From positions 1 to 48,952 of the forward strand of contig JAGBZO010000032.1 in the NCBI GenBank assembly GCA_017628205.1: a stretch of 48,952 nucleotides of DNA, in the 5' to 3' direction. The DNA is from Duodenibacillus sp. (lineage in GTDB: Bacteria > Pseudomonadota > Gammaproteobacteria > Burkholderiales > Burkholderiaceae_F). The position numbers were made by a program, and so were the translations under genes. Shown here piece after piece: positions 38,117 through 48,879 of the stretch. Within the stretch, counting starts at the first letter, position 1; each line of letters starts with the position of its first letter. The notes below the pieces were generated by a model that saw only the letters and a list, made by a program, of their open reading frames with translations, had not been told where the DNA came from and searched no databases.

Positions 38117-38201
38117 TTATGATGCGCGTGCTTTTCGTCGATTGTTTGACGTCGATTCGATCACCTCGAATCGACTCGCCGCGCCGGTTTTGATTTTTGC
38201 C

Positions 38202-38822
38202 ATGTCTTTGATTCGTTTGTCCGTCTTCTTGTCCTCAACGCTGATGCTGTGCGCTTGCGCTCCTTTGCACGATCTATTGCAACAATCGGCGGCGCCTGGC
38301 GCCGAAAGCCCTGCGCAGACGCCGACCGAAGACGAACTCGTCGAGATCGCCCGCAGTATGCCCACGGAAAAAGACATTCAAGAGCGTTTCCTCGCCTTGC
38401 CGGGCATGTATCGTCAAATCTGTCTTGCGCCGGAGCTGGCGCCTTACTTTGACAAGACGCCCTGTCTGCCGTCCATGGCCACCAAGGCGCACGTCAACGA
38501 CACGACCCGCATCACGCCTGTTCAAGCGGCCGCCATGCGTCAGGCCGTTTCTGAAATTCGGGAACTCAACGACGAAACGCGCCGCCTCATGATCGAGTCC
38601 GGTCTCGAACCCTACGCATCCCACGCCCGTCATGCCGCATCGACGCTCGATCCGCTTGTCGTCACCAACCAAAACGCCTTGATCAACGGCGAGATTACGT
38701 GGGGCGAGTACAACCGTCGTCGTCTCGAGCTGGGCAATCGCCCCAACCCCTTTGCGTCCGACAACGAGGCAAACAGCGCGCCGACGGCGCCCGCTTCCGC
38801 CCCCGTGACGCGCCAACCTTAA
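38202..38822 (+). CDS. Putative lipoprotein of unknown function
   Basis: A 206-residue protein. From ATG 38202 the N terminus is a basic-then-hydrophobic signal (MSLIRLSVFLSSTLM) ending in a lipobox-like LCAC, so lipidation at the second Cys (about 19) is likely and the protein would be in the periplasm or outer membrane. The mature part is polar and helical, has one pair of cysteines (CLAP and CLPS) that may form a disulfide, and ends in an Ala/Pro/Thr-rich tail. No family was recognised. An earlier start at 38142 would mask the signal sequence and is not preferred. It is not tightly linked to the nitrogenase-like operon 113 nt downstream. Confidence 0.65.
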   Translation: MSLIRLSVFLSSTLMLCACAPLHDLLQQSAAPGAESPAQTPTEDELVEIARSMPTEKDIQERFLALPGMYRQICLAPELAPYFDKTPCLPSMATKAHVNDTTRITPVQAAAMRQAVSEIRELNDETRRLMIESGLEPYASHARHAASTLDPLVVTNQNALINGEITWGEYNRRRLELGNRPNPFASDNEANSAPTAPASAPVTRQP

Positions 38823-38935: not shown

Positions 38936-39736
38936 ATGTACAGACTCGCCATTTACGGTAAAGGTGGCATCGGCAAATCCACCACCGTCAGCAATCTTGC
39001 CGCCGCATTCGCCCGCATGGGCATGACCGTCTTGCAAATCGGTTGCGATCCCAAAGCCGACTCGACGATCAACCACAACGGCGGTCGACGCATTGAAAGC
39101 ATCCTCGATTTGTTGCGTGTCAAAGGCCATCAAGGCACGACGCTCGACGACATGGTGCACCGCGGTCAAGACGGCGTGTGGTGCGTCGAAGCGGGCGGCC
39201 CGAGCCCCGGCACGGGCTGCGCCGGGCGCGGCATCGTGGCCGCATTCGAGGCGCTCAGCGCCTGCAACGCCTTCGAGCGCATCAAACCCGACGTCGTGTT
39301 GTACGACGTGTTGGGCGACGTCGTATGCGGCGGATTCGCCATGCCGATTCGCAAAGGCTACGCCGACAACGTCTTTATCATCACCTCCGGTGAAAACATG
39401 GCCATTTACGCGGCCGGTAACATCGCTCAAGCCGTTGGCAACTACAAAAATCGCGGTTACGCCCGTTTGAGCGGCATCATCCTGAACCGTCGCAACGTCG
39501 AAAACGAAGACGCCAAGGTCGACGAGCTCGCGCAGACCGTCGGTACGAACGTTGTCGCCCGTTTGACGCGCAGCGCCACCGTCCAACAAGCCGAAGAAAT
39601 CGGCTCGACGGTCGTGTCCGCCTTCCCCGATTCCGACATGGCCAAAGAGTATATGGACTTGGCTCGTACGATTCTCGCGGCTTCCCGTCCGAGCGATGAA
39701 CAACCCGTCATCCAAATTCGAGCCGGGGAGCTTTGA
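38936..39736 (+). CDS. Nitrogenase-like iron protein (NifH superfamily, group IV type)
   Basis: A 266-residue ATP-dependent electron donor for a nitrogenase-like reductase, expected to be a homodimer bridged by one [4Fe-4S] cluster. All key elements are intact: P-loop GKGGIGKST (8-16), switch I CDPKADST (37-44), cluster Cys95 in GTGCAGRG, and Cys131 in [11 protein letters not shown]. It differs from NifH and from BchL/ChlL (which has a longer N terminus) and resembles group IV nitrogenase-like proteins of anaerobes. It is the first gene of a six-gene unit with two component-1-like subunits and an ABC importer. The ribosome site is weak. Electron partner is probably ferredoxin or flavodoxin encoded elsewhere. 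Confidence 0.92.
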
Positions 39737-39738
39737 TC

Positions 39739-41067
39739 ATGCCTCTGTTGGCCCCTCAAAAGACACCGATCGCCCGATCCACGCTCGGCCGCTGCGCCTT
39801 TCCCTCCCCCTTTGCATCGGGCTTGGAGTACTCCGCGCCCGCTCGCGGTCCCTGGACCATCATGCATTTGGGCCTACTCGTGCCCGACACGCACATCGTG
39901 TTTGTCTGCGCCGAATGCTGCCTGCGCGGCGTCGTGATGTCGGCGGCCGAAGTCAAGGCCCTCGATCGCTTCTCGACGATTACGATCGAGGACAAGAACC
40001 TGCTCGAAGGCGACACCGAAGACGTTCTCGTTGAAGGGGTGAGCGACGTCATTGCCAAACTGCGTTATCGTCCTCGAGCCGTCTTGATCTACACGAGCTG
40101 CGTGCACGAATTCATCGGATCGGACTTGAACTTCAGTTTCGACACGTTGCGCGCTCGATTCCCCGACATCGACTTTACCGATTGCTACATGACGCCCGTG
40201 TTGCGAAAACGCATTTCGCCCGACGCGCGCAATCGTCGCCAAATCTACAGTCTGTTGCGACCGCGCACCGATCGCGACGACGGCGTCACGATCTTTGCCG
40301 ACGTGCGTCCGCACGAGGAGCACTCGGACATTCGACGCGTCGTCGAGGCGTCCGGACGCCCGTGGCGCACGATCACGTCCGCCCGTACTTACGACGAATA
40401 CCAAGCGTTGGCTCGTTCGGAGTTCGCCTTAAGCGTCAACCCCGTCGGCAAAGCCGCCATCGAATGGGCCGGCGAACGTCTCGGCATGCAACCGATCATG
40501 CTCTCGTGCGGATGGTCGATCGAAGAAAACACGCGCATGCTCGAGGATCTCGGGCAACGTCTGGGCGCTCCCCGACTCGATTGGACCGACGCGCAAAACG
40601 ACGCGAAGGACGCTTTGCGCGAGGCGCGCGAGCGACTGGCCGACACGCCGATCGCCATCGACTACACGGCAACCACCCGTCCGTGTTCTTTGGCCCGCCT
40701 GTTGATTGAGTACGGCTTTAACGTCTCGCACCTCTTTGTCGATCAGTTCCTGCCTCCGGATCGCGCCGACTTCGAGTGGTTGCGCTCGCACGCCCCCGAG
40801 TTGGCCGTTTTCCCGACGGTGCACAACTCCATGGTGCACGCACGTGCCGAGCTCACTGATCCGTCGGTCGTCGCCATCGGCCAAAAGGCCGCCTATTTCA
40901 CCGGAACGGACCGTTTCATCAACATGATCGAAGGCGACGGAACGGACGGCCTGCGTTCGATCGCTTGGCTTGCCCGACGTCTCATCGACGCATTCGACCA
41001 TCCCAAGAGCGCCCGCGACACGATTCAGATCAAAGCGCTCGGCTGTACGCGAGGAGGTTGCTTATGA
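39739..41067 (+). CDS. Nitrogenase component-1-like subunit (NifD-position)
   Basis: A 442-residue oxidoreductase component with three-domain NifD/K-type fold inferred from motifs. Cysteines sit where component-1 cluster ligands are expected: Cys19 in GRCAFPSP, Cys57 and the Cys60-Cys61 pair in FVCAECC, and Cys121 in TSCVHEFIGSDL, which mirrors the SxCxxxLIGDD motif of NifD. It ends with an unusual GCTRGGCL tail. The conserved block AIGQKAAYFTGT near 390 is typical of component-1 homologues of unknown function. The start at 39739 has GGGGAG eight nt upstream, 2 nt after the iron protein stop. The tail overlaps the next gene, whose ribosome site GGAGG lies within the terminal codons. Confidence 0.88.
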   Translation: MPLLAPQKTPIARSTLGRCAFPSPFASGLEYSAPARGPWTIMHLGLLVPDTHIVFVCAECCLRGVVMSAAEVKALDRFSTITIEDKNLLEGDTEDVLVEGVSDVIAKLRYRPRAVLIYTSCVHEFIGSDLNFSFDTLRARFPDIDFTDCYMTPVLRKRISPDARNRRQIYSLLRPRTDRDDGVTIFADVRPHEEHSDIRRVVEASGRPWRTITSARTYDEYQALARSEFALSVNPVGKAAIEWAGERLGMQPIMLSCGWSIEENTRMLEDLGQRLGAPRLDWTDAQNDAKDALREARERLADTPIAIDYTATTRPCSLARLLIEYGFNVSHLFVDQFLPPDRADFEWLRSHAPELAVFPTVHNSMVHARAELTDPSVVAIGQKAAYFTGTDRFINMIEGDGTDGLRSIAWLARRLIDAFDHPKSARDTIQIKALGCTRGGCL

Positions 41068-42287
41068 AGCAAGCCAATGCGTTTTTACCCGTTTATACGG
41101 CGGACAATTCCGCCATGTGTTCGGCCTTGTACGAATTGGGCGGTTTGTTGGTCATGCACGACGCCTCGGGCTGCAATTCGACGTATACGACGCACGACGA
41201 ACCCCGATGGTTCGATCGCCCCGCCCAGGTTTACATCACCGGTTTGACGGAAATCGATGCCGTCTTGGGCAACGAGCAACGCATGATCGACGACATTGTC
41301 GACGCCGCCCGCGAGTTGACGCCGCATTTCATCGCCATTGCCGGCACCCCGATCCCCATGATGATGGGGACGGACTACGACGGCATCGCCCGTGAAATCG
41401 AAGCGGCGACCGGCATCATCAGTTTCGGCATCGACACCAACGGCACCCACGATTATGTCTCGGGCGCCGACAAAGCCTTCGCGCAACTGGCCGATCGCTT
41501 TTGCACCGACGTCTTTGCCAAAACCGACCGTCTGTCGGTCAACCTGCTCGGCGTGACGCCTCTCGATTTTTCCATCAATGGAACGCATGCCGATTTGCGT
41601 CGTCTGTTCGAAGACAACGGTATCGACGTGCTGTCCTGTTGGGCCATGGACGACGAGCTCGGCAACATCACCCGCGCCTCAAGCGCGCACGTCAACGTCG
41701 TCGTCTCCTCCAGCGGGTTGTCCGCCGCCCGTTTGCTCGCCACGCGATTCGGCATGCCTTACGTCGTGGGGTGCCCCGTCGGCCGTTTCATGACCGATGT
41801 TTTGCTTCAAAAGGTGCGTGAAGCCGCCGAGTATCGCGAGTGCTTCAACCTCGCCGTGGGTTGTCGAGGCAACGACACCGACGCGCCGCCGAGCTACGTT
41901 ATCGGCGACCCCGTGATTGCCGCCGCCGTGCGCGCCTCGCTCGTGCGCGACGAAGGCCTGACGAACGTGCGCGTTCTCACGAGCCTGACGTGCGACGAGA
42001 TGCTGCTCGCCCCGGGCGATCGCACCGGCCTCGTTGAAGACGACTACCTGAAACTGTTGCCCGAAGCCGGGCTTGTCGTCGCCGATCCGTTGTATCGCAC
42101 CATGTTGCAGCTCTCGGGCAAAACGAACGTTGATTTTGCCGAGTGGCCTCATGAAGCTTTCTCCGGACGCATCTGGCGCGAGCATATGCCGCACTTTGTC
42201 GGCGACGCTTTCAACCGATGGTTCCATGACCGGGCGAACACCCCCTCTTTGACCGGTTCGCTTTATAAAAATTTGTCCGCTTTTTAA
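41064..42287 (+). CDS. Nitrogenase component-1-like subunit (NifK-position)
   Basis: A 407-residue partner of the preceding subunit. Only two of the usual three cluster cysteines are evident, Cys19 in SAMCSALYE and Cys37 in DASGCNST; the third position, after the second domain strand, reads IAGTPIPMMMGTDYDGIA, with no Cys. The GTPxPxxxGxDxxGI block is characteristic of component-1 homologues linked to importers. Start at 41064 overlaps the previous stop as ATGA with GGAGG nine nt before, so the two subunits should be made in equal amounts. Six nt separate it from the binding-protein gene. Together the two could hold a single bridging [4Fe-4S] cluster, as in DPOR or the F430 cyclase. Confidence 0.87.
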   Translation: MKQANAFLPVYTADNSAMCSALYELGGLLVMHDASGCNSTYTTHDEPRWFDRPAQVYITGLTEIDAVLGNEQRMIDDIVDAARELTPHFIAIAGTPIPMMMGTDYDGIAREIEAATGIISFGIDTNGTHDYVSGADKAFAQLADRFCTDVFAKTDRLSVNLLGVTPLDFSINGTHADLRRLFEDNGIDVLSCWAMDDELGNITRASSAHVNVVVSSSGLSAARLLATRFGMPYVVGCPVGRFMTDVLLQKVREAAEYRECFNLAVGCRGNDTDAPPSYVIGDPVIAAAVRASLVRDEGLTNVRVLTSLTCDEMLLAPGDRTGLVEDDYLKLLPEAGLVVADPLYRTMLQLSGKTNVDFAEWPHEAFSGRIWREHMPHFVGDAFNRWFHDRANTPSLTGSLYKNLSAF

Positions 42288-42293
42288 TCCATT

Positions 42294-43391
42294 ATGAAAA
42301 AAACGTTTCTTAGCGCTCTTATCGGCGCCGTCGCTTTCATCGGATCGAGCGCCGTCGCGCGCACAATCGTCGACGACATGGATCGCACCGTGTCCGTTCC
42401 GGATCAAATCCAACGCATGGTGATCACCAACGTCTATCCCTACGCATCGGTCGCCACCGTCTTTTTGGGCGGAACCGACAAGATCGTCGGTATCAGCCCC
42501 GTTGCCATGAGCGCCGCCAAAAACGGGCTGTTGGGCGAGCTCTATCCCGACATCAAGTCCGTTCAAACGAACTTCATGCAAAGCAACAGCCTCAACATCG
42601 AGGCCTTGATGCGGCTCAAGCCCGACGTCGTCATTGCCAACGCCGGCGACATTCCGACGATCAAGCAGGTTGAAAACGCCGGCATCCCCGTCGTTGCGGT
42701 CAGCACGTCCAAGTGGAATTACGACGTCGTGCAGACCTACGACAACTGGATCAAAACGTTGTCGACCCTCTTTCCGGAACACGACAAATCCGATAAGGCG
42801 GCTCAAGCCTCCAAGCGTGCATTGGAGCTCGTTCAAAAACGGACGGCTCATCTCAAACCCGAAGAACGCAAAGGCGTGCTCTTTTTGTTCCAGTACGGTC
42901 CCAAGCGCATGATCACGAGCGGCAAAAACTTCTTCGGCCAGTACTGGTGCGACGCCATCGGCGCGCGCAACGTCGCGTCCAAGATCCAAACGAACAACGC
43001 CAACGCGCTCATCAACATGGAGCACGTCTACGCTTGGAATCCCGACGTCGTCTTCATCACCAACTTCACGCCGACTTTGCCCAAGGATCTGTACGAAGGC
43101 ACTCACGACAATTGGTCCAACATCAAAGCCGTACGAAACAAACAGGTCTACAAGATGCCTCTGGGCGTGTATCGAAGCTACACCCCGTCGGCCGACACGC
43201 CGTTAACGTTGTTATGGATGGCAAAAACCGTGTATCCTGAGTTGTTTTCCGACATCGATTTGACCGTCGAGGTCCGAAACTACTACAAAGAACTTTTCGG
43301 CGTCACGCTGACCGACGAGCAAATCGCATCCATTTACACCCCCGATGCGTCTCGATCGGCAGGTTTCTCCCGACGACCGGGAAGCAAATAA
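42294..43391 (+). CDS. ABC importer periplasmic binding protein (FepB/BtuF type)
   Basis: A 365-residue class III periplasmic binding protein. A signal peptide (MKKTFLSALIGAVAFIGSSAVA, cleavage about 22) is followed by DDMDRTVSVPDQIQRMV, the opening of the siderophore/heme/cobalamin binding-protein fold, then KIVGIS and RLKPDVVIANAG. No lipobox is present, so it is soluble in the periplasm. Family ligands are Fe-siderophores, heme or B12; which one is bound cannot be decided here. The gene starts 6 nt after the component-1-like subunit with almost no ribosome site, so translation probably depends on coupling. Confidence 0.88.
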   Translation: MKKTFLSALIGAVAFIGSSAVARTIVDDMDRTVSVPDQIQRMVITNVYPYASVATVFLGGTDKIVGISPVAMSAAKNGLLGELYPDIKSVQTNFMQSNSLNIEALMRLKPDVVIANAGDIPTIKQVENAGIPVVAVSTSKWNYDVVQTYDNWIKTLSTLFPEHDKSDKAAQASKRALELVQKRTAHLKPEERKGVLFLFQYGPKRMITSGKNFFGQYWCDAIGARNVASKIQTNNANALINMEHVYAWNPDVVFITNFTPTLPKDLYEGTHDNWSNIKAVRNKQVYKMPLGVYRSYTPSADTPLTLLWMAKTVYPELFSDIDLTVEVRNYYKELFGVTLTDEQIASIYTPDASRSAGFSRRPGSK

Positions 43392-43403
43392 CGCTGACAA
43401 CGT

Positions 43404-44408
43404 ATGAACAACACCCCCAAAAAGACGCTCTTGCTGTTGTGTGCGGTCCTTGTCCTGACCATGCTGGCGGCTCTCGGTATGGGAAGCTACCAACTGTCGA
43501 TGCTTCAGGTCGTCCAAACCATCGACTCGCTCTGGCACAGCGTCGAAGGCATTGACGACACGATGCGCTCGGTCGTGCTCAACGTGCGTTTGCCCCGCGT
43601 CATTCTGGCCGTCGTCGCAGGCGCGGGTCTGGCCGTCGCAGGCGCCGCCTTTCAAGCGCTCTTTTCCAACCCGCTGGCAACGCCCGACACTTTGGGCGTC
43701 GCCACGGGCGCCGCTTTCGGCGCCGTGTTGGGCATCTTGTTCGGCGTCGAAGGCTTCGGCATTCAATTGACGTCGTTGGCCATGGGCTTGGCCGCCGTCT
43801 TTCTCGTCTACTCCGTCAGCCGCGTGCGCGGATCGAGCTCCATTTTGATGCTCATTTTGTCCGGTCTGGTCATCGCCGCGTTGTTCAGCGCTCTGATCAG
43901 CTTGGTCAAATACGCGGCCGACCCTCAGGACGTTTTGCCGTCGATCACCTTTTGGATGATGGGAACGTTGACGGGCGCGTCTCTTGACACGCTCTCGTTG
44001 GGCTTGCCCTTCATCGTGCTCGGTTCGGGCTTGCTGTACTTGTTGCGTTGGAAGCTGAACGCCTTGTCGTTGCCCGAAGACGAAGCCAAATCGTTGGGCA
44101 TTCCTTTGGCTCGTCTGCGCTTGCTCGTCATTTTGTCGGGCACGATGATTACGGCGAGCGTGGTCAGCATGTGCGGCCTGATCGGCTGGGTCGGTCTGTT
44201 GATTCCGCACTTTGCCCGTCTGGTGTTCGGCAACAATAACGTGGCGGTGATTCCCGCTTCGCTTGTCCTGGGCAGCTTGTTCGTTTTGATCGCCGACACG
44301 ATCGCCCGTTGCGCGACCGAAATGGAGATTCCCGTTTCCATTTTGACGGCCGTCATCGGCGCTCCGGTCTTCATCTTGTTGTTGCGCCGTTCCGGCGGCA
44401 TTCGTTAA
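43404..44408 (+). CDS. ABC importer permease (FecCD/BtuC family)
   Basis: A 334-residue permease with about nine to ten hydrophobic segments. The FecCD hallmarks are clear: RLPRVILAVVAGAGLAVAG near residue 55, NPLATPDTLGVATGAAFGA, and the coupling region CGLIGWVGLLIPHFARLVFG near 255. One permease gene for a homodimer, as in BtuCD. It lies 12 nt after the binding protein and 12 nt before the ATPase, completing a BtuCDF-like importer in the operon. Confidence 0.93.
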   Translation: MNNTPKKTLLLLCAVLVLTMLAALGMGSYQLSMLQVVQTIDSLWHSVEGIDDTMRSVVLNVRLPRVILAVVAGAGLAVAGAAFQALFSNPLATPDTLGVATGAAFGAVLGILFGVEGFGIQLTSLAMGLAAVFLVYSVSRVRGSSSILMLILSGLVIAALFSALISLVKYAADPQDVLPSITFWMMGTLTGASLDTLSLGLPFIVLGSGLLYLLRWKLNALSLPEDEAKSLGIPLARLRLLVILSGTMITASVVSMCGLIGWVGLLIPHFARLVFGNNNVAVIPASLVLGSLFVLIADTIARCATEMEIPVSILTAVIGAPVFILLLRRSGGIR

Positions 44409-44420
44409 GAAGGAGCAACC

Positions 44421-45206
44421 ATGCAGTTTGACGTTCGCCACGGCTGTTTCTCTTACCCCGACGGAAAACAGGTGCTCAACGACATTCAATTCGATTTCGA
44501 TTGTCGCGGCATCATGAGCATTCTCGGCGCCAACGGGGCCGGCAAAACCACGCTCTTGAAATGCATGCTGGGGCTGCAAAAATGGACCTCCGGCGGCACT
44601 TATATCGACAATCAGAACATCGCCCGTTTGCCGAGCAAAACCCTGTGGTCGCGTATCGGTTACGTTCCTCAGGCCAAGATGCCGTCCTTCGTTTATACGG
44701 TCGCCGAATTGGTCGTTCTGGGACGCAGCGCGCATTTGGGCGACTTCGCCCGCCCCGGTCCCGAAGACTGGCATCTCGTGAACGAAGCGCTCAACACCAT
44801 CGGTATCGGCCATTTGGCCAACAAGTTGTGCAATCAAATTTCGGGCGGCGAGTACCAACTCGCCCTTGTCGCCCGCGCTTTGGTCGGTCGCCCCGAACTT
44901 TTGGTCTTGGACGAACCCGAGAGCAATTTGGACTTCAAAAACCAATTGTTGGTGTTGCAGGTGCTGGAAAAGCTCTCGCGCGAGCATTCGATCGGTGCCA
45001 TCATCAACACCCACTTTCCCGCGCACGCCTTGGAAATCTCCGATCGTTCGTTGGTGATGTTCCCGGACAAGCAAACCCTCTACGGTCCGAGCTCCGAGGT
45101 TTTGACACCCGAAACCTTGACCCGCAGCTTCGGCGTCAACGTAAAAATTGTCGATATCAATGTGAAGGATCGTCCGCAATACGCTTGCGTGGTAGCCGTC
45201 AACTAA
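44421..45206 (+). CDS. ABC importer ATPase (FepC/BtuD type)
   Basis: A 261-residue ATPase with Walker A GANGAGKTTLL (about 35-45), a Q-loop in YVPQAKM, signature ISGGE in place of LSGGQ, Walker B LLVLDEPESNLD, and the H-switch in INTHFPAHAL. This matches ATPases of FecCD-type metal-chelate or cobalamin importers. AAGGAG lies seven nt before ATG 44421. It is the last gene of the nitrogenase-like operon and is followed by a strong terminator. Confidence 0.92.
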   Translation: MQFDVRHGCFSYPDGKQVLNDIQFDFDCRGIMSILGANGAGKTTLLKCMLGLQKWTSGGTYIDNQNIARLPSKTLWSRIGYVPQAKMPSFVYTVAELVVLGRSAHLGDFARPGPEDWHLVNEALNTIGIGHLANKLCNQISGGEYQLALVARALVGRPELLVLDEPESNLDFKNQLLVLQVLEKLSREHSIGAIINTHFPAHALEISDRSLVMFPDKQTLYGPSSEVLTPETLTRSFGVNVKIVDINVKDRPQYACVVAVN

Positions 45207-45230
45207 TGGTCCGCGACGATGACGGACAAC

Positions 45231-45258
45231 AAAAAACCGCTCGAATGAGCGGTTTTTT
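45231..45258. terminator. Terminator of the nitrogenase-like/ABC operon
   Basis: AAAAAACCGCTC and GAGCGGTTTTTT, a 12-bp stem with GAAT loop and T run in both directions. Also serves the convergent secreted-protein gene. Confidence 0.92.
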
Positions 45259-45285
45259 CGTCTGCGTTCCCGTGCCAAGCGGCTC

Positions 45286-45789
45286 TTACGGGGTGGGCAT
45301 GTCCAACAGACTGCCGGCCTGAGCCTCGCGAATTCGGGACGCGTTCTTCGGGCAATCGGTCGGATCGGTGCAGTTGTAGGGAATCCCCCGTCGAATTTCA
45401 ACGTGAACCTGACGAACCTGCCGACGCAACTGTTGTCGCTCTTCGTCCGTCAGCTCGCGTTTGAGACGCGCGGGCTGCGACTCCAATTGATCGACGGCGA
45501 TGATGTAACGGTATTTGATGTCCTTGCGCTCTTTGACCGTCATGTTCTGACGCATCTCGCGTCGTTCTTGCTTGGTCATGTAACGCCACTGGAAAAGGCG
45601 CTGTTGGTGCGAAAGCAAGGGCCACAACGCGGCGCGTTGCTGAGCGGTCATTTGATCCCAGAACAAATGATCGACGCTGGGCAAAGGCTCGAATCCCAAC
45701 AAACTGAAGTGGGTTTCAAGTGCGGCAACGTTCAGAGACGCGGTTCCCAAACAGGTGCCGATCAAGAGCGACCCCAAGAGCTGTTTCAT
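45286..45789 (-). CDS. Secreted/periplasmic protein of unknown function, DUF3106-like
   Basis: A 167-residue protein with an N-terminal signal peptide (MKQLLGSLLIGTCLGTASLNVAA, cleavage about 23). The mature part begins with QMTAQQRAALWPLLSHQQRL and continues with many charged, helical repeats of T-x-x-E-R-x-x-x (MTKQERREM, MTVKERKDI, LTDEERQQL), a pattern like DUF3106 proteins common in betaproteobacteria. A Cys pair in NCTDPTDC near the C terminus may form a disulfide. No function is known. It is divergent from the ompR-like gene, so it may be under that regulator's control. Confidence 0.7.
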   Translation of the reverse strand: MKQLLGSLLIGTCLGTASLNVAALETHFSLLGFEPLPSVDHLFWDQMTAQQRAALWPLLSHQQRLFQWRYMTKQERREMRQNMTVKERKDIKYRYIIAVDQLESQPARLKRELTDEERQQLRRQVRQVHVEIRRGIPYNCTDPTDCPKNASRIREAQAGSLLDMPTP

Positions 45790-45959: not shown

Positions 45960-46025
45960 ATCACAATAGCCTGACGGCTAAGGCTTCGGAACAAGAAAAC
46001 ACTCGATTTGTCAAGGAGAACAGGT

Positions 46026-46766
46026 ATGCCCGATAGCGAACGCACCCCTAAGATTTTGGTAGTCGACGACGATCCTCGCTTGCGCGATTTGCTGCGTCGT
46101 TACCTCGGAGAAAACGGCTTCTCCGTCACCGTTGCCGAAGGGGGACAATCGATGAATCGCGTCTGGTTGCGCGAACGCTTCGACGCTCTGATTCTCGACC
46201 TGATGATGCCCGGAGAAGACGGCTTGCAGATTCTGCGCCGTTTGCGCGCCGCCAAGGACACGACGCCGATCATCATGCTGACGGCTCGCGGCGAAGACGT
46301 CGACCGTATCGTCGGTCTTGAACTCGGCGCCGACGACTACCTGGCCAAACCCTTCAATCCGCGCGAGTTGCTCGCCCGCATTCATGCCGTTTTGCGCCGT
46401 CGTCCGGCCAACGACCAACCGGGCGCTCCTTCCATGGAAAACGAAACCGTCTGCTTCGGCGCGTTCGAACTCGATTTGGGTCGCCGCGAATTGCGCAAGA
46501 ACGGCGAACTCGTTCCGCTTACGACCGGCGAATTTGCCGTCATGAAGGCCTTTGCCCGTCATCCCCGCCTGCCCTTGTCCCGCGACAAGCTGATGGAAAT
46601 GGCTCGCGGTCGCGAATACGAAGCGTTCGACCGCTCGCTTGACGTACAGGTCAGCCGCCTGCGCAAGTTGATCGAACCCGATCCCGCCAAGCCGCGTTAC
46701 TTGCAAACGGTTTGGGGCTTGGGCTACGTCTTCATTCCCGACGACAACCAAGCCGCCAACGACTAA
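46026..46766 (+). CDS. ompR: OmpR-family response regulator
   Basis: A 246-residue regulator. The receiver domain has the acidic pocket VVDDD (12-16), phospho-acceptor Asp58 in LILDLMMPGEDG, a Thr switch in IIMLTARGED, and Lys in AKPFNPRE. The C-terminal winged helix reads GREYEAFDRSLDVQVSRLRK and YLQTVWGLGYVF, close to OmpR itself (and to the Bordetella RisA type). ATG 46026 has AAGGAG seven nt before. The kinase follows after 32 nt. Multiple TTGTAACA sites upstream point to autoregulation. The classic role is osmotic/acid control of envelope genes; targets here are unknown. Confidence 0.9.
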   Translation: MPDSERTPKILVVDDDPRLRDLLRRYLGENGFSVTVAEGGQSMNRVWLRERFDALILDLMMPGEDGLQILRRLRAAKDTTPIIMLTARGEDVDRIVGLELGADDYLAKPFNPRELLARIHAVLRRRPANDQPGAPSMENETVCFGAFELDLGRRELRKNGELVPLTTGEFAVMKAFARHPRLPLSRDKLMEMARGREYEAFDRSLDVQVSRLRKLIEPDPAKPRYLQTVWGLGYVFIPDDNQAAND

Positions 46767-46798
46767 TTCTTTTCACGTAAGAGGATCTGCAGTCATCT

Positions 46799-48169
46799 AT
46801 GGCAAAACTGAGTTCCAACGTCGCTCCCAATCTGTTTTGGCGAACCTTCGTGTTGATCATGTTTTTCATCATCTTCACGGTCATGGGGTGGCTGCAGAGT
46901 TTTCGTGTCTTGAATGAAGCGCCGTACGTTCGCTCGGCGGCGCAGCAAATCGTTTCCGTCGCCAATTTGACGCGTTACGCCCTCATTACGGCGGATCCCT
47001 TCTACCGCACGGATCTGCTGTTGATTTTGGCTCGACGCGAGGGCGTTCGCATCCTTCCCAAAGAGCAGACCGACGAGGTCTTGCCCTTGGCCGCCACGTA
47101 CAACTACACGAGTTCCATCGCCGACGTCGAACTGCTTGTGCGTCGCGAACTCGGGAACGACACGGTCATGGCCGGTCAGGTCAACGGCGAACCCGGTCTT
47201 TGGGTCTCGATCAACATCGACGGCGACAGCTACTGGTTGATGACCAGTTCGACGCTCATCAATCCGCCCTATGGAAACACTTGGATTTGGTGGGCGCTAG
47301 CCGCTCTGGTCGCCAGTATCCTCGGGGCCACTTTCATCACTCGACGACTTACTCAGCCTTTGAAGTTGCTCTCGAACAGCGCCCGCGCGTTCGGTCGAGG
47401 CGAAGTGCCGCCGCTGTTGCCTGAAAACAGCGGTCCCGAAGAGTTGCGCGAACTCAATTCGAGCTTCAACCGCATGGTGCAGGACATCACGCACTTTTCT
47501 CAAGACCGCGAATTGTTGCTGGCCGGGGTTTCTCATGACCTGAGAACGCCGATCACGCGCTTGCGTTTGGAAGCGGAAATGGCCGACATCAGCGAAGACA
47601 CGCGCAAGGCCGTTGTCAGTGATCTCGAACAGATGGAAGCTATCGTCAACCAGTTCCTCGATTACGCGCGTCGCAACGATCAGCCGTTGCAACCGGTCAA
47701 TCTGTCTCAAAGCGTTTCGATGTCGCTGACGTCGGCGCGCATCGAAAACGATTCGTCCATCCGACTGCATACGGATATTGAGCCGGACGTCTTTGTGCAG
47801 GCGCACCCGACCGAACTGTCCCGCGTCATTCAAAACCTTTGCACGAACGCCTCCCGCTACGGTCGAAGCGAAGACGGTTTGTTGTATCTTTCCCTGGTTG
47901 TTCGCAAAGAACGCAACTGCGCCGTCTTAAGCGTATCGGACCAAGGTCAGGGGTTGGACATGAGTCAAGCCGAGCGCATCATGCGTCCGTTCGAACGTGG
48001 CGACAGTGCCCGTGCCGGCGTGACGGGTAGCGGCCTGGGGTTGGCCATCGTCGATCGCATCGTGCGACGTTCGGGCGGTCAAACCGAATTGCAAAGCGTG
48101 ATTCCTCACGGTTTGAAAGTGATCGTTCGCATGCCCTGCGTGAACTGCTCGAACAAACCCGGCGCCTGA
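46799..48169 (+). CDS. envZ: EnvZ/RisS-like sensor histidine kinase
   Basis: A 456-residue membrane kinase. A first transmembrane segment (WRTFVLIMFFIIFTVMGWL, about 14-32) and a second (WIWWALAALVASILGATFI, about 161-179) enclose a periplasmic domain of about 125 residues. A HAMP domain follows, then the H-box GVSHDLRTPITRLRLE with phospho-His246, and the ATPase domain with NLCTNASRYG (N box), SDQGQGLD (G1) and GSGLGLAIVDRI (G2). The cognate response regulator is immediately upstream. GAGGA about 13 nt before the ATG is a distant ribosome site. Confidence 0.9.
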   Translation: MAKLSSNVAPNLFWRTFVLIMFFIIFTVMGWLQSFRVLNEAPYVRSAAQQIVSVANLTRYALITADPFYRTDLLLILARREGVRILPKEQTDEVLPLAATYNYTSSIADVELLVRRELGNDTVMAGQVNGEPGLWVSINIDGDSYWLMTSSTLINPPYGNTWIWWALAALVASILGATFITRRLTQPLKLLSNSARAFGRGEVPPLLPENSGPEELRELNSSFNRMVQDITHFSQDRELLLAGVSHDLRTPITRLRLEAEMADISEDTRKAVVSDLEQMEAIVNQFLDYARRNDQPLQPVNLSQSVSMSLTSARIENDSSIRLHTDIEPDVFVQAHPTELSRVIQNLCTNASRYGRSEDGLLYLSLVVRKERNCAVLSVSDQGQGLDMSQAERIMRPFERGDSARAGVTGSGLGLAIVDRIVRRSGGQTELQSVIPHGLKVIVRMPCVNCSNKPGA

Positions 48170-48189
48170 TGCCACAGCAAATTTTTAGC

Positions 48190-48241
48190 GAATTCTTGTC
48201 CTTTTTCTACAAAAAGAGCAGAATTCTTTCTTACCGAATTC
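48190..48241. repeat. Three GAATTC repeats before the FixJ-like gene
   Basis: GAATTC at 48190-48195, 48221-48226 and 48236-48241, spaced 31 and 15 bp, in the 92-bp gap. The first two continue as GAATTCTT. They may be half-sites of a regulator; chance is not excluded. Confidence 0.35.
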
Positions 48242-48261
48242 AGTACTGATTGGAGTTTATT

Positions 48262-48879
48262 GTGGATACGTTGAAACCTCTCGTTCGTGTGATTGATGAC
48301 GACGACGCCATGCGTCGTTCCTGGGCCTTCCTGATCGAAGGCGAAGGTTGGGATGTCGCCACCTATTCGAACGCCATCGAATTCATCACCTCGAACGACT
48401 TCACTCGTCCGGGTTGCATCGTTCTCGACGTCCGCATGCCCAGCATGAGCGGTCTCGAACTGCAGGACAAGTTGCGCGAAATGGGCGTGACGCTTCCCAT
48501 CATCTTCATTTCCGGTCACGGCGACATCGACATGGCCGTGCATACGTTGAAGCACGGTGCCGTCGACTTCCTGCAAAAGCCCGTGGACGATCAACGCCTC
48601 CTGACGACCATCGGTACGGCCGTCATGCGCCACTTGAACCAGTGCCGCAACGATATGGAATTGTCGACGTTCCGCGCACGCCTCGAACAGCTCACGCAGC
48701 GCGAACGCGAAGTCATTCGCATGGTCGCTCAGGGCATGAGCAACAAGAGCGTGGCCGAAAACCTCGGCATCAGCGAAAAAACCGTTCAGGTGCATCGCGG
48801 CTCTGCCTATCGCAAGCTCGATTTGCACAACGCGGCCGAAATCGCCCGCCTGTTGTTGCGTTCCGGCGATCCGCTGTAA
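48262..48879 (+). CDS. FixJ/NarL-type response regulator (GTG start)
   Basis: A 205-residue two-domain regulator. The receiver has VIDDDD at 10-15, phospho-Asp56 in IVLDVRMP, and the switch block ISGHGDIDMAV typical of the FixJ branch, with Lys in LQKPVDD. A LuxR-type helix-turn-helix follows (LTQREREVIRMVAQGMSNK to KTVQVHRG). I chose GTG 48262 with GGAG six nt upstream; a TTG four codons earlier overlaps that ribosome site. No kinase is adjacent in view; the preceding EnvZ-like kinase belongs to the OmpR-type regulator. Regulators of this branch (TtrR, TodT, FixJ) often control respiration with alternative acceptors. Confidence 0.88.
   Translation: MDTLKPLVRVIDDDDAMRRSWAFLIEGEGWDVATYSNAIEFITSNDFTRPGCIVLDVRMPSMSGLELQDKLREMGVTLPIIFISGHGDIDMAVHTLKHGAVDFLQKPVDDQRLLTTIGTAVMRHLNQCRNDMELSTFRARLEQLTQREREVIRMVAQGMSNKSVAENLGISEKTVQVHRGSAYRKLDLHNAAEIARLLLRSGDPL

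Follow-up and report, generated by a model that had tools for sequence, protein, structure and literature searches.

A nitrogenase-like operon of Duodenibacillus as a candidate replacement for HydG in [FeFe]-hydrogenase maturation

The window analysed here is the entire 48,952-nt contig JAGBZO010000032.1 of a Duodenibacillus sp. genome (1.83 Mb, 85.7% complete). It carries six intact plus-strand open reading frames (ORFs; positions 38936–45206) in the order H-D-K-S-P-A: a NifH-type iron protein (H), two nitrogenase component-1-like subunits (D and K), and the binding protein, permease and ATPase of an ABC importer (S, P and A). The iron-bound CO and CN ligands normally come from HydG, a radical S-adenosylmethionine (radical-SAM) enzyme that is regarded as the source of all of them. 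We propose that HDK would be an ATP-driven two-component reductase that replaces HydG in the assembly of the [FeFe]-hydrogenase H-cluster. That HDK takes the place of HydG we hold to be moderately probable, a judgement that does not extend to the chemistry or the substrate. HDK is a new branch of the known nitrogenase superfamily, and the pathway would be new if confirmed.

HDK genes are linked to [FeFe]-hydrogenase maturation genes

A scan of genome contigs with a K profile gave 541 relatives, and the locus counts below use the best 80 of the 541. By record title, these 80 loci belong mainly to gut and rumen Clostridia, but also to Clostridium ljungdahlii, C. carboxidivorans, C. drakei, Intestinibacter bartlettii, an Atopobiaceae, a Synergistes, a Treponema and Victivallales. 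The radical-SAM gene that recurs beside HDK is HydE (562 bits; cut-off 255), and the recurrent GTPase gene is HydF (517 bits; cut-off 326). Within 10 kb of K, HydE was present in 25 of the 80 loci, HydF in 22 and either of them in 37. HydG was not found in the 80 K loci, where its best match (74 bits) falls within the range of HydE, and there was no HydA cluster among the identified recurrent neighbour families of HDK.

At the level of whole genomes, HydA (PF02906) and HydE each exceeded their cut-offs in all 54 HDK genomes tested. HydG exceeded its cut-off in ten of them, was present as two end pieces in an eleventh (G132) and gave nothing in 43. HDK genomes without HydG were encountered among records of Bacillota, Atopobiaceae, Synergistes, Treponema, Victivallales and Sutterellaceae.

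Two exchangeable modules accompany HDK

We surveyed 101 genomes related to the window and counted K orthologues as close at 237 bits or more. Close orthologues occurred in eight genomes, the window's own included, and five of the seven others keep the complete H-D-K-S-P-A order; G049 gave matches for H-D-K-S only, and the contig of G059 ends within K. Since the same order is found in five relatives and K has 541 relatives, the six-gene set is no chance array. The initial annotation had proposed a neighbourhood search for the same six genes, and this recurrence is its outcome. It had also joined the reductase to the importer. This pairing stands in the five relatives and in 55 of the 80 loci, which have S or P at most 6 kb from K in the arrangement HDK-SPA or PA-HDK-S. 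It is not obligatory, however, as the importer also occurs without HDK and 19 of the 80 loci have a different module instead.

This second module is a distant D′K′ pair, often with an H′, at most 10 kb from K. It is accompanied by HypF, HypD or HypE in 18 of these 19 loci; the remaining one, L092, is broken off at the contig end. Importer and D′K′ were never found together in the 80 loci; neither was present in six, and in each of these a contig end truncates one side. The gene order in C. ljungdahlii is D′-K′-HypF-HypC-HypD-HypE-H-D-K, HypC being assigned from its sequence. Because the importer and D′K′-Hyp replace each other, we suggest that each supplies the same compound, which could be a cyano-iron species or its ligands. 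In a quick tree of K, the module label switches at least four times. The window's family has two separate positions there, and one of these is nested in a supported clade that consists mostly of Bacillota, which suggests two transfers.

Tandem H-D-K and H′-D′-K′ sets with Hyp genes were seen in L065, L083, L093, L097, L102, L106, L108, L109 and L110, which are records of gut Lachnospiraceae, Ruminococcus and Victivallales type. We considered a service of the Hyp genes to a NiFe hydrogenase. The NiFe large subunit was present in seven of the 26 genomes with the D′K′ form (seven of the 26 were from the class draw described below and were assigned by K′ matches without regard to Hyp genes). In the 19 others it was not found, and such a service is unlikely there.

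HydG is missing from most Clostridia genomes with HDK

We drew 341 genomes evenly from the class of C. ljungdahlii (the class draw) and counted K as HDK-type at 278 bits or more, the best match of the next genome being 157 bits. HDK was present in 18 of the 341 genomes. HydE accompanied it in 17, as it did in all eight HDK genomes among the window's relatives, and 13 of these 17 had no HydG, versus 10 of the 212 HydE-positive genomes without HDK (Fisher p = 4e-12). HydG itself occurs in about 214–215 of the 341 genomes; G448, the presumed odd one, is not HydE-positive and would leave the HydE-positive counts as they are. Since about eight of the 341 genomes have HydG without HydE, the noise from missing genes is a few per cent, similar to the 10 of 212.

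A strict K subset was defined by at least 468 bits, or by 299–313 bits together with a K′ match on the same contig. All 12 genomes of this subset have HydE, and HydG is absent from 12 of 12 (p = 2.6e-14); the split was made after the HydG answers had been seen. The looser K group (278–401 bits) consists of G218, G294, G325, G415, G287 and G457, and the first four of these have HydG. Its members may form a sister family that serves a different task. The distance from K to HydE is about 1.2 kb in G457.

The importer seems tied to hydrogenase maturation in the window's family

Thirty-five of the 101 relatives were taken as HydE-positive, 34 with a score over the cut-off and G029 with 252.8 bits. 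In G003, which belongs to the window's genus, S-P-A without HDK stands between window-like neighbours (49–86% identity), and HydG follows 7.6 kb beyond the importer; in G007, these neighbours stand on either side of a full HDK-SPA set. Neither HydG nor HDK was found in G027, G038 and G050. In all three, S-P-A comes shortly after HydF-HydE on the same strand, adjoining it in G038 and separated from it by one 664-codon gene in G027 and G050. The importer therefore seems to be tied to hydrogenase maturation in its own right, and HDK may extend what the importer delivers. HydG, HDK and S were all not found in the HydE-positive genomes G001, G002, G014, G022, G029 and G034.

A FeoB-like ferrous iron transporter, recognized by eye, is encoded just before HydF-HydE in G027 (L144:12136-14538), and the cluster with a FeoB representative occurs in seven of 87 HDK loci (L026, L034, L036, L042, L044, L065 and L084).

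The solved chains nearest to a profile of seven S orthologues are 4ovk (195 bits), annotated just as 'Periplasmic binding protein', and HI_1472 (3psa, 132 bits), which we take to be the molybdate protein MolA; the solved neighbours also include a nickel/iron-binding protein. The YR-TPSADTP motif of the binding proteins is partly kept in 4ovk. Molybdate import by analogy with HI_1472 was not adopted, since this motif, conserved in S, is not kept in the HI_1472 alignment.

H, D and K form a distinct branch of the nitrogenase superfamily

Judged by matches to PF00148 and PF00142 above the gathering score, HDK is a member of the nitrogenase superfamily, with component 1 and a NifH-type partner. 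H, D and K all stay below the cut-offs of the NCBIfam models listed. H scored 316 bits with nifH (cut-off 394), 315 with CfbC (402), 200 with BchL (345) and 177 with BchX (331). The values for K were 67 bits with BchB (cut-off 490), 65 with NifE (505), 36 with nifD (654), 29 with CfbD (268), 27 with BchZ (529) and 24 with nifK (427), and D had its best match with nifE at 22.6 bits and none with nifD or nifK. When 78 D and 77 K sequences were scanned singly, the best E-values to any Nif/Bch/Cfb-type family were 3e-10 and 4e-25, respectively. Among solved chains, the alignment profile of D matched NifE best (46 bits) and that of K a NifEN fusion (90 bits), and chain 9fmg, which is methylthio-alkane reductase (Mar) according to PMC12552129, reached 25 bits with D and 48 with K. 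Along with this weak match, the window operon has no radical-SAM gene, so that it lacks the marks of Mar/Isr; in related loci, the radical-SAM gene that recurs beside HDK is HydE. Beyond D and K, no protein of the 85.7% complete genome passes the PF00148 cut-off, and no NifEN was found in it. Low model scores and missing ligands led us to reject membership in NifDK, NifEN, Bch, Cfb and Mar; the initial annotation had stated that none of the characterised pathways fits, and by model and profile scores no characterised family does.

The cysteine pattern was compared with that of known members. In H, the P-loop, C95 and C131 are kept in eight of eight sequences, and C95 and C131 are presumably the cluster ligands, as in NifH. 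Among the D sequences C57, C61 and C121 are present in 78 of 78 and C436, near the C-terminus, in 77 of 78. C37 is the single invariant cysteine of K and, like H32 and H44, occurs in 77 of 77; the K motif reads HDASGCNSTY-THDEPRW. In NifEN, the O-cluster is ligated by C37, C62 and C124 of NifE, with a hydrogen bond from C44 of NifN, and C250 of NifE holds the cofactor (PMC13031127). In the alignments, C121 of D falls on the YNTC-motif cysteine of NifE, and C37 of K on a GC in the NifN part of the NifEN fusion. By spacing, counted by hand, C61 of D corresponds to NifE C62, and the first NifE ligand falls on an invariant arginine, R36; we propose that C57, in the arrangement C57-x3-C61, could stand in for this missing ligand. 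C57, C61 and C121 of D together with C37 of K are therefore put forward as putative ligands of a bridging Fe-S cluster. The column of NifD C275/NifE C250, located by profile alignment and not by structure, holds residue 234 in D (N in 33, L in 15 and Q in 9 of 78) and residue 215 in K (S in 75 of 77). The four invariant cysteines, taken together with the absence of the cofactor-ligand cysteine from both D and K, suggest that D-K combines a bridging Fe-S cluster with a vacant cavity for the substrate.

The operon in the window

All six operon proteins exceed the Pfam gathering cut-offs (Table 1), and Peripla_BP_2, FecCD and ABC_tran within one operon identify the importer as FecCD-type. The gene spacings computed from the ORF coordinates are 2, −4, 6, 12 and 12 nt. 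ORFs and Pfam matches thereby confirm the intact reductase-importer set and the spacings given by the initial annotation, and six same-strand genes with gaps of −4 to 12 nt are what would be expected of the tight operon that it had predicted. Its strong terminator is found again as a hairpin of 12 unbroken pairs with a T-run, a stability equalled in one of 200 shuffles. This hairpin is absent from the output of a consensus terminator scanner, probably because the T-run is paired within the stem. The contig ends 3.7 kb beyond the operon.

Table 1 Features of the HDK-importer operon in the window
Feature	Positions	Strand	Evidence
H, NifH-type iron protein, 266 aa	38936..39736	+	Fer4_NifH (PF00142) 294.5 bits
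D, nitrogenase component-1-like subunit	39739..41067	+	Oxidored_nitro (PF00148) 64.8 bits
K, second component-1-like subunit	41064..42287	+	Oxidored_nitro (PF00148) 105.8 bits
S, periplasmic binding protein	42294..43391	+	Peripla_BP_2 94.7 bits
P, FecCD-type permease	43404..44408	+	FecCD 278.7 bits
A, ABC ATPase of the importer	44421..45206	+	ABC_tran 92.9 bits
Predicted rho-independent terminator	45229..45261	+	fold −24.3 kcal/mol, z −3.93

The start of D is the ATG at 39739, with an in-frame TTG at 39733. P stays under the cut-off of all 16 NCBIfam models listed, its top match being BtuC-type (207 of 461 bits). The N-terminus of S resembles a signal peptide, as judged by eye. This signal looks ordinary, unlike those of the orthologues L144:5861-6997 (G027) and L030:10394-11545 (G049), which by eye are twin-arginine-like (TRRDTLK and GRRAVLG, respectively). 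Two proteins without a Pfam match flank the operon, at 38142–38822 and 45286–45789 (−), and homologues of both flank the importer-only locus of G003 and HDK-SPA of G007. Further on, at 46008–48879, the window encodes a response regulator, a RisS-like sensor kinase and a LuxR-type regulator; homologues of the response regulator and the RisS-like kinase are also found downstream of the importer in G003 and G007.

Discussion

The reaction scheme that follows is inferred throughout, including what is imported and which type of cluster is present. A precursor would be supplied by S-P-A in the window, or by HypCDEF and D′K′ in C. ljungdahlii. Electrons would pass, with ATP, from H to the bridging Fe-S cluster on D (C57, C61, C121) and K (C37), and the precursor would be reduced in the D-K cavity, which has no NifD/NifE cofactor-ligand cysteine. 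The product, a CO/CN-bearing iron unit or a source of ligands, would then go to HydE, HydF and apo-HydA. A more specific version of this route is possible, though we find it doubtful in its full extent: a ready iron-cyanide/carbonyl precursor (or ligand source) would be imported via S-P-A or made by HypCDEF, HDK would turn it into the substrate of HydE independently of HydG, parts of the H-cluster would be a nutrient exchanged between gut microbes, and G027, G038 and G050 would manage on import alone.

Some acetogens pose the question that HDK may answer. Di Leonardo et al. 2022 reported HydE and HydF in eight of eight acetogenic clostridia and HydG in three; the five without detected hydG include C. 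ljungdahlii and C. carboxidivorans, and the authors saw no straightforward explanation for this (PMC9431212). Both named species carry HDK. In five species the same work describes HypCDEF but no HypAB; it also reports an additional HypC-D-E set for C. carboxidivorans and lists the order HypF-C-D-E for C. ljungdahlii (PMC9431212). This is also the order beside HDK in C. ljungdahlii, and we infer that the two sets are identical. All five CO and CN ligands of the HydG route are reported to come from tyrosine (PMC3105041). Among the matches listed in our literature search, which covered titles and openings of abstracts and left subscription journals and bioRxiv out of scope, no paper ties nitrogenase-like genes to H-cluster maturation. 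The main text of an essentiality study of C. autoethanogenum does not contain nif or nitrogenase (PMC9004356).

Several points weigh against a replacement of HydG by HDK. Both systems occur together in 11 of the 54 HDK genomes and in four of the 18 HDK genomes of the class draw; another of the 18, G287, has no HydE, and ten HydE-positive genomes of that draw have neither HDK nor HydG. A HydE tree was made for 80 genomes (34 with HDK, 40 HDK-less with HydG and six with neither), on which the HDK state changes 14 times. Of the independent pairs, 5.5 go the same way, 0.5 the opposite way and 3.0 show no difference (median p = 0.125), and p = 0.031 is reached only once the six genomes with neither system are dropped; the tree-corrected signal is weak, consistent in direction and low in power. 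Among the window's relatives, the presence of HDK does not go along with the loss of HydG: HydG is absent from four and present in four of the eight HydE-positive relatives with HDK, and it is also absent from ten of the 27 without HDK, nine of these ten being at least 94% complete. HydG of the window's genome may have been missed, because the genome is 85.7% complete, the contig ends 3.7 kb past the operon and HydG of G003 lies 7.6 kb past the importer. A close S orthologue (at least 356 bits) is found in 22 of the 101 related genomes, and all 22 have HydE, a count confounded by the HydE-less genomes being largely from other genera; in this family the importer either predates HDK or is independent of it. 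C. ljungdahlii has a NiFe hydrogenase, and its Hyp genes, like those of four other Clostridium genomes, could possibly serve that enzyme. Finally, two other explanations for the missing hydG were offered by Di Leonardo et al.: an atypical radical-SAM protein that acts as HydG and has a deviating cysteine motif, or ligands obtained without HydG from free CO/CN, HydE and HydF alone giving about 1% activation (PMC9431212). The HydG profile gave a single match of 68 bits in C. ljungdahlii, which is the HydE gene, and no atypical HydG was found, so that the first option is weakened in this species. In C. carboxidivorans, the profile matched at 198 bits, under the cut-off, in addition to the HydE gene.

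Other readings account for parts of these data. DPOR, COR and Cfb are nitrogenase-like enzymes without a cofactor that reduce tetrapyrroles, and the initial annotation had HDK reduce the compound that the importer brings in, for example a tetrapyrrole or metal chelate, to salvage metal or to use it as electron acceptor. On this reading, HDK would have no part in H-cluster assembly. The importer beside HDK in 55 of 80 loci and a D-K cavity fit for a substrate, with no cofactor-ligand cysteine in D or K, agree with this, and there is a precedent in Rhodobacter capsulatus, where the IsrBHDK reductase and the Ssu ABC importer are both required for growth on isethionate (PMC11423573). In the importer form of the locus, HDK possibly does act on the imported compound. 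Nevertheless, we disfavour this reading and consider it improbable, because HDK stands in a context of [FeFe]-hydrogenase maturation: the HydE/HydF linkage, the Hyp genes, HydA and HydE in 54 of 54 genomes and the mostly missing HydG. It leaves the linkage and the HydG absence unexplained, as well as the 19 of 80 loci that have D′K′ without an importer, 18 of them with Hyp genes. Alternatively, HDK with HydE, HydF and Hyp might build another organometallic cofactor for a different enzyme, the hydrogenase being a bystander. HydE, HydF and Hyp genes recur beside HDK with no HydA cluster among the identified neighbour families, D′K′ could be a scaffold or target, and some HDK genomes also have HydG; but a separate cofactor would not explain why HydG is absent, and all 54 HDK genomes have HydA-type genes, most of them without a HydG to serve these. 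This alternative is unlikely in our view.

It is quite unlikely that the association reflects a shared lifestyle, with HDK a reductase of fermenting gut anaerobes that have hydrogenases by coincidence and the HydG absence due to phylogenetic clumping, poor assemblies or a hidden HydG. The weak tree-corrected test, the missing HDK-HydG trend in the window's family and the atypical HydG proposed in PMC9431212 would fit such a coincidence, as would the many metagenome-assembled genomes and the approximately eight of 341 genomes with HydG but no HydE, which gauge the level of missing genes. On the other hand, 13 of 17 versus 10 of 212 genomes without HydG and the direct HydE/HydF linkage in 37 of 80 loci argue against coincidence, and HydG is reported missing in well-studied acetogens as well (PMC9431212). 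Very unlikely, finally, is a role restricted to iron supply, in which the importer would bring iron (or Mo/Ni) chelates, HDK would free the metal, and CO and CN would come from elsewhere. The FecCD/Peripla_BP_2 type of the importer, its position beside HydE-HydF without HDK in G027, G038 and G050, the FeoB-representative cluster in seven of 87 loci and the solved neighbours of S, a nickel/iron-binding protein and HI_1472 (presumably molybdate MolA), are compatible with metal transport, but the absence of HydG and the Hyp genes of the D′K′ form would have no explanation.

If HDK does replace HydG, a nitrogenase-like enzyme would close the gap in industrial acetogens without a detected hydG (PMC9431212), and the widespread nitrogenase-like genes of gut Clostridia would have a function. 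It would also offer a new tool for hydrogenase production, and it would tie together how metal-cofactor assembly of the nitrogenase type and of the hydrogenase type evolved. HDK genes are likely to be part of the 'pseudo-nifH' set that confuses surveys of nitrogen fixation (PMC8597730).

Comparison with known systems

NifEN has a NifH-type partner, as HDK does, is the best profile match of D and K in the PDB, and shares the division of the cysteines at the bridging-cluster site, three from one subunit and one from its partner. It differs in that D has R36 at the first NifE ligand and C57-x3-C61 instead, and nothing equivalent to NifE C250, and the HDK scores are far under the cut-offs. DPOR (BchL/BchNB) is a cofactor-free, ATP-driven reductase with a bridging cluster of 3 + 1 ligands, and K matches BchB with 67 bits; however, the BchB cut-off is 490 bits, and BchB has an aspartate where K has C37. 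CfbCD of F430 biosynthesis is a group IV system (PMC11423573), and H matches CfbC with 315 bits, but this is under the CfbC cut-off of 402, K has 29 of 268 bits with CfbD, and HDK has two component-1 subunits whereas Cfb is described without a NifK homologue (PMC11423573). MarBHDK and IsrBHDK have H-D-K genes, and Isr additionally an ABC importer, but their sets include a radical-SAM B protein (PMC11423573). MarDK carries a P-cluster and an Fe8S9C cluster (PMC12552129), and its structure 9fmg matches with just 25 (D) and 48 (K) bits.

On the side of hydrogenase maturation, HypCDEF, which makes Fe(CN)2CO for NiFe enzymes (PMC9431212), is present in the D′K′ form, though in 19 of 26 such genomes no NiFe large subunit was found. 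HydG is a single radical-SAM tyrosine lyase, to which HDK, ATP-driven by homology, is unrelated; yet the two have the same partners, HydE and HydA (and HydF where linked), and the role that we propose for HDK is identical to that of HydG.

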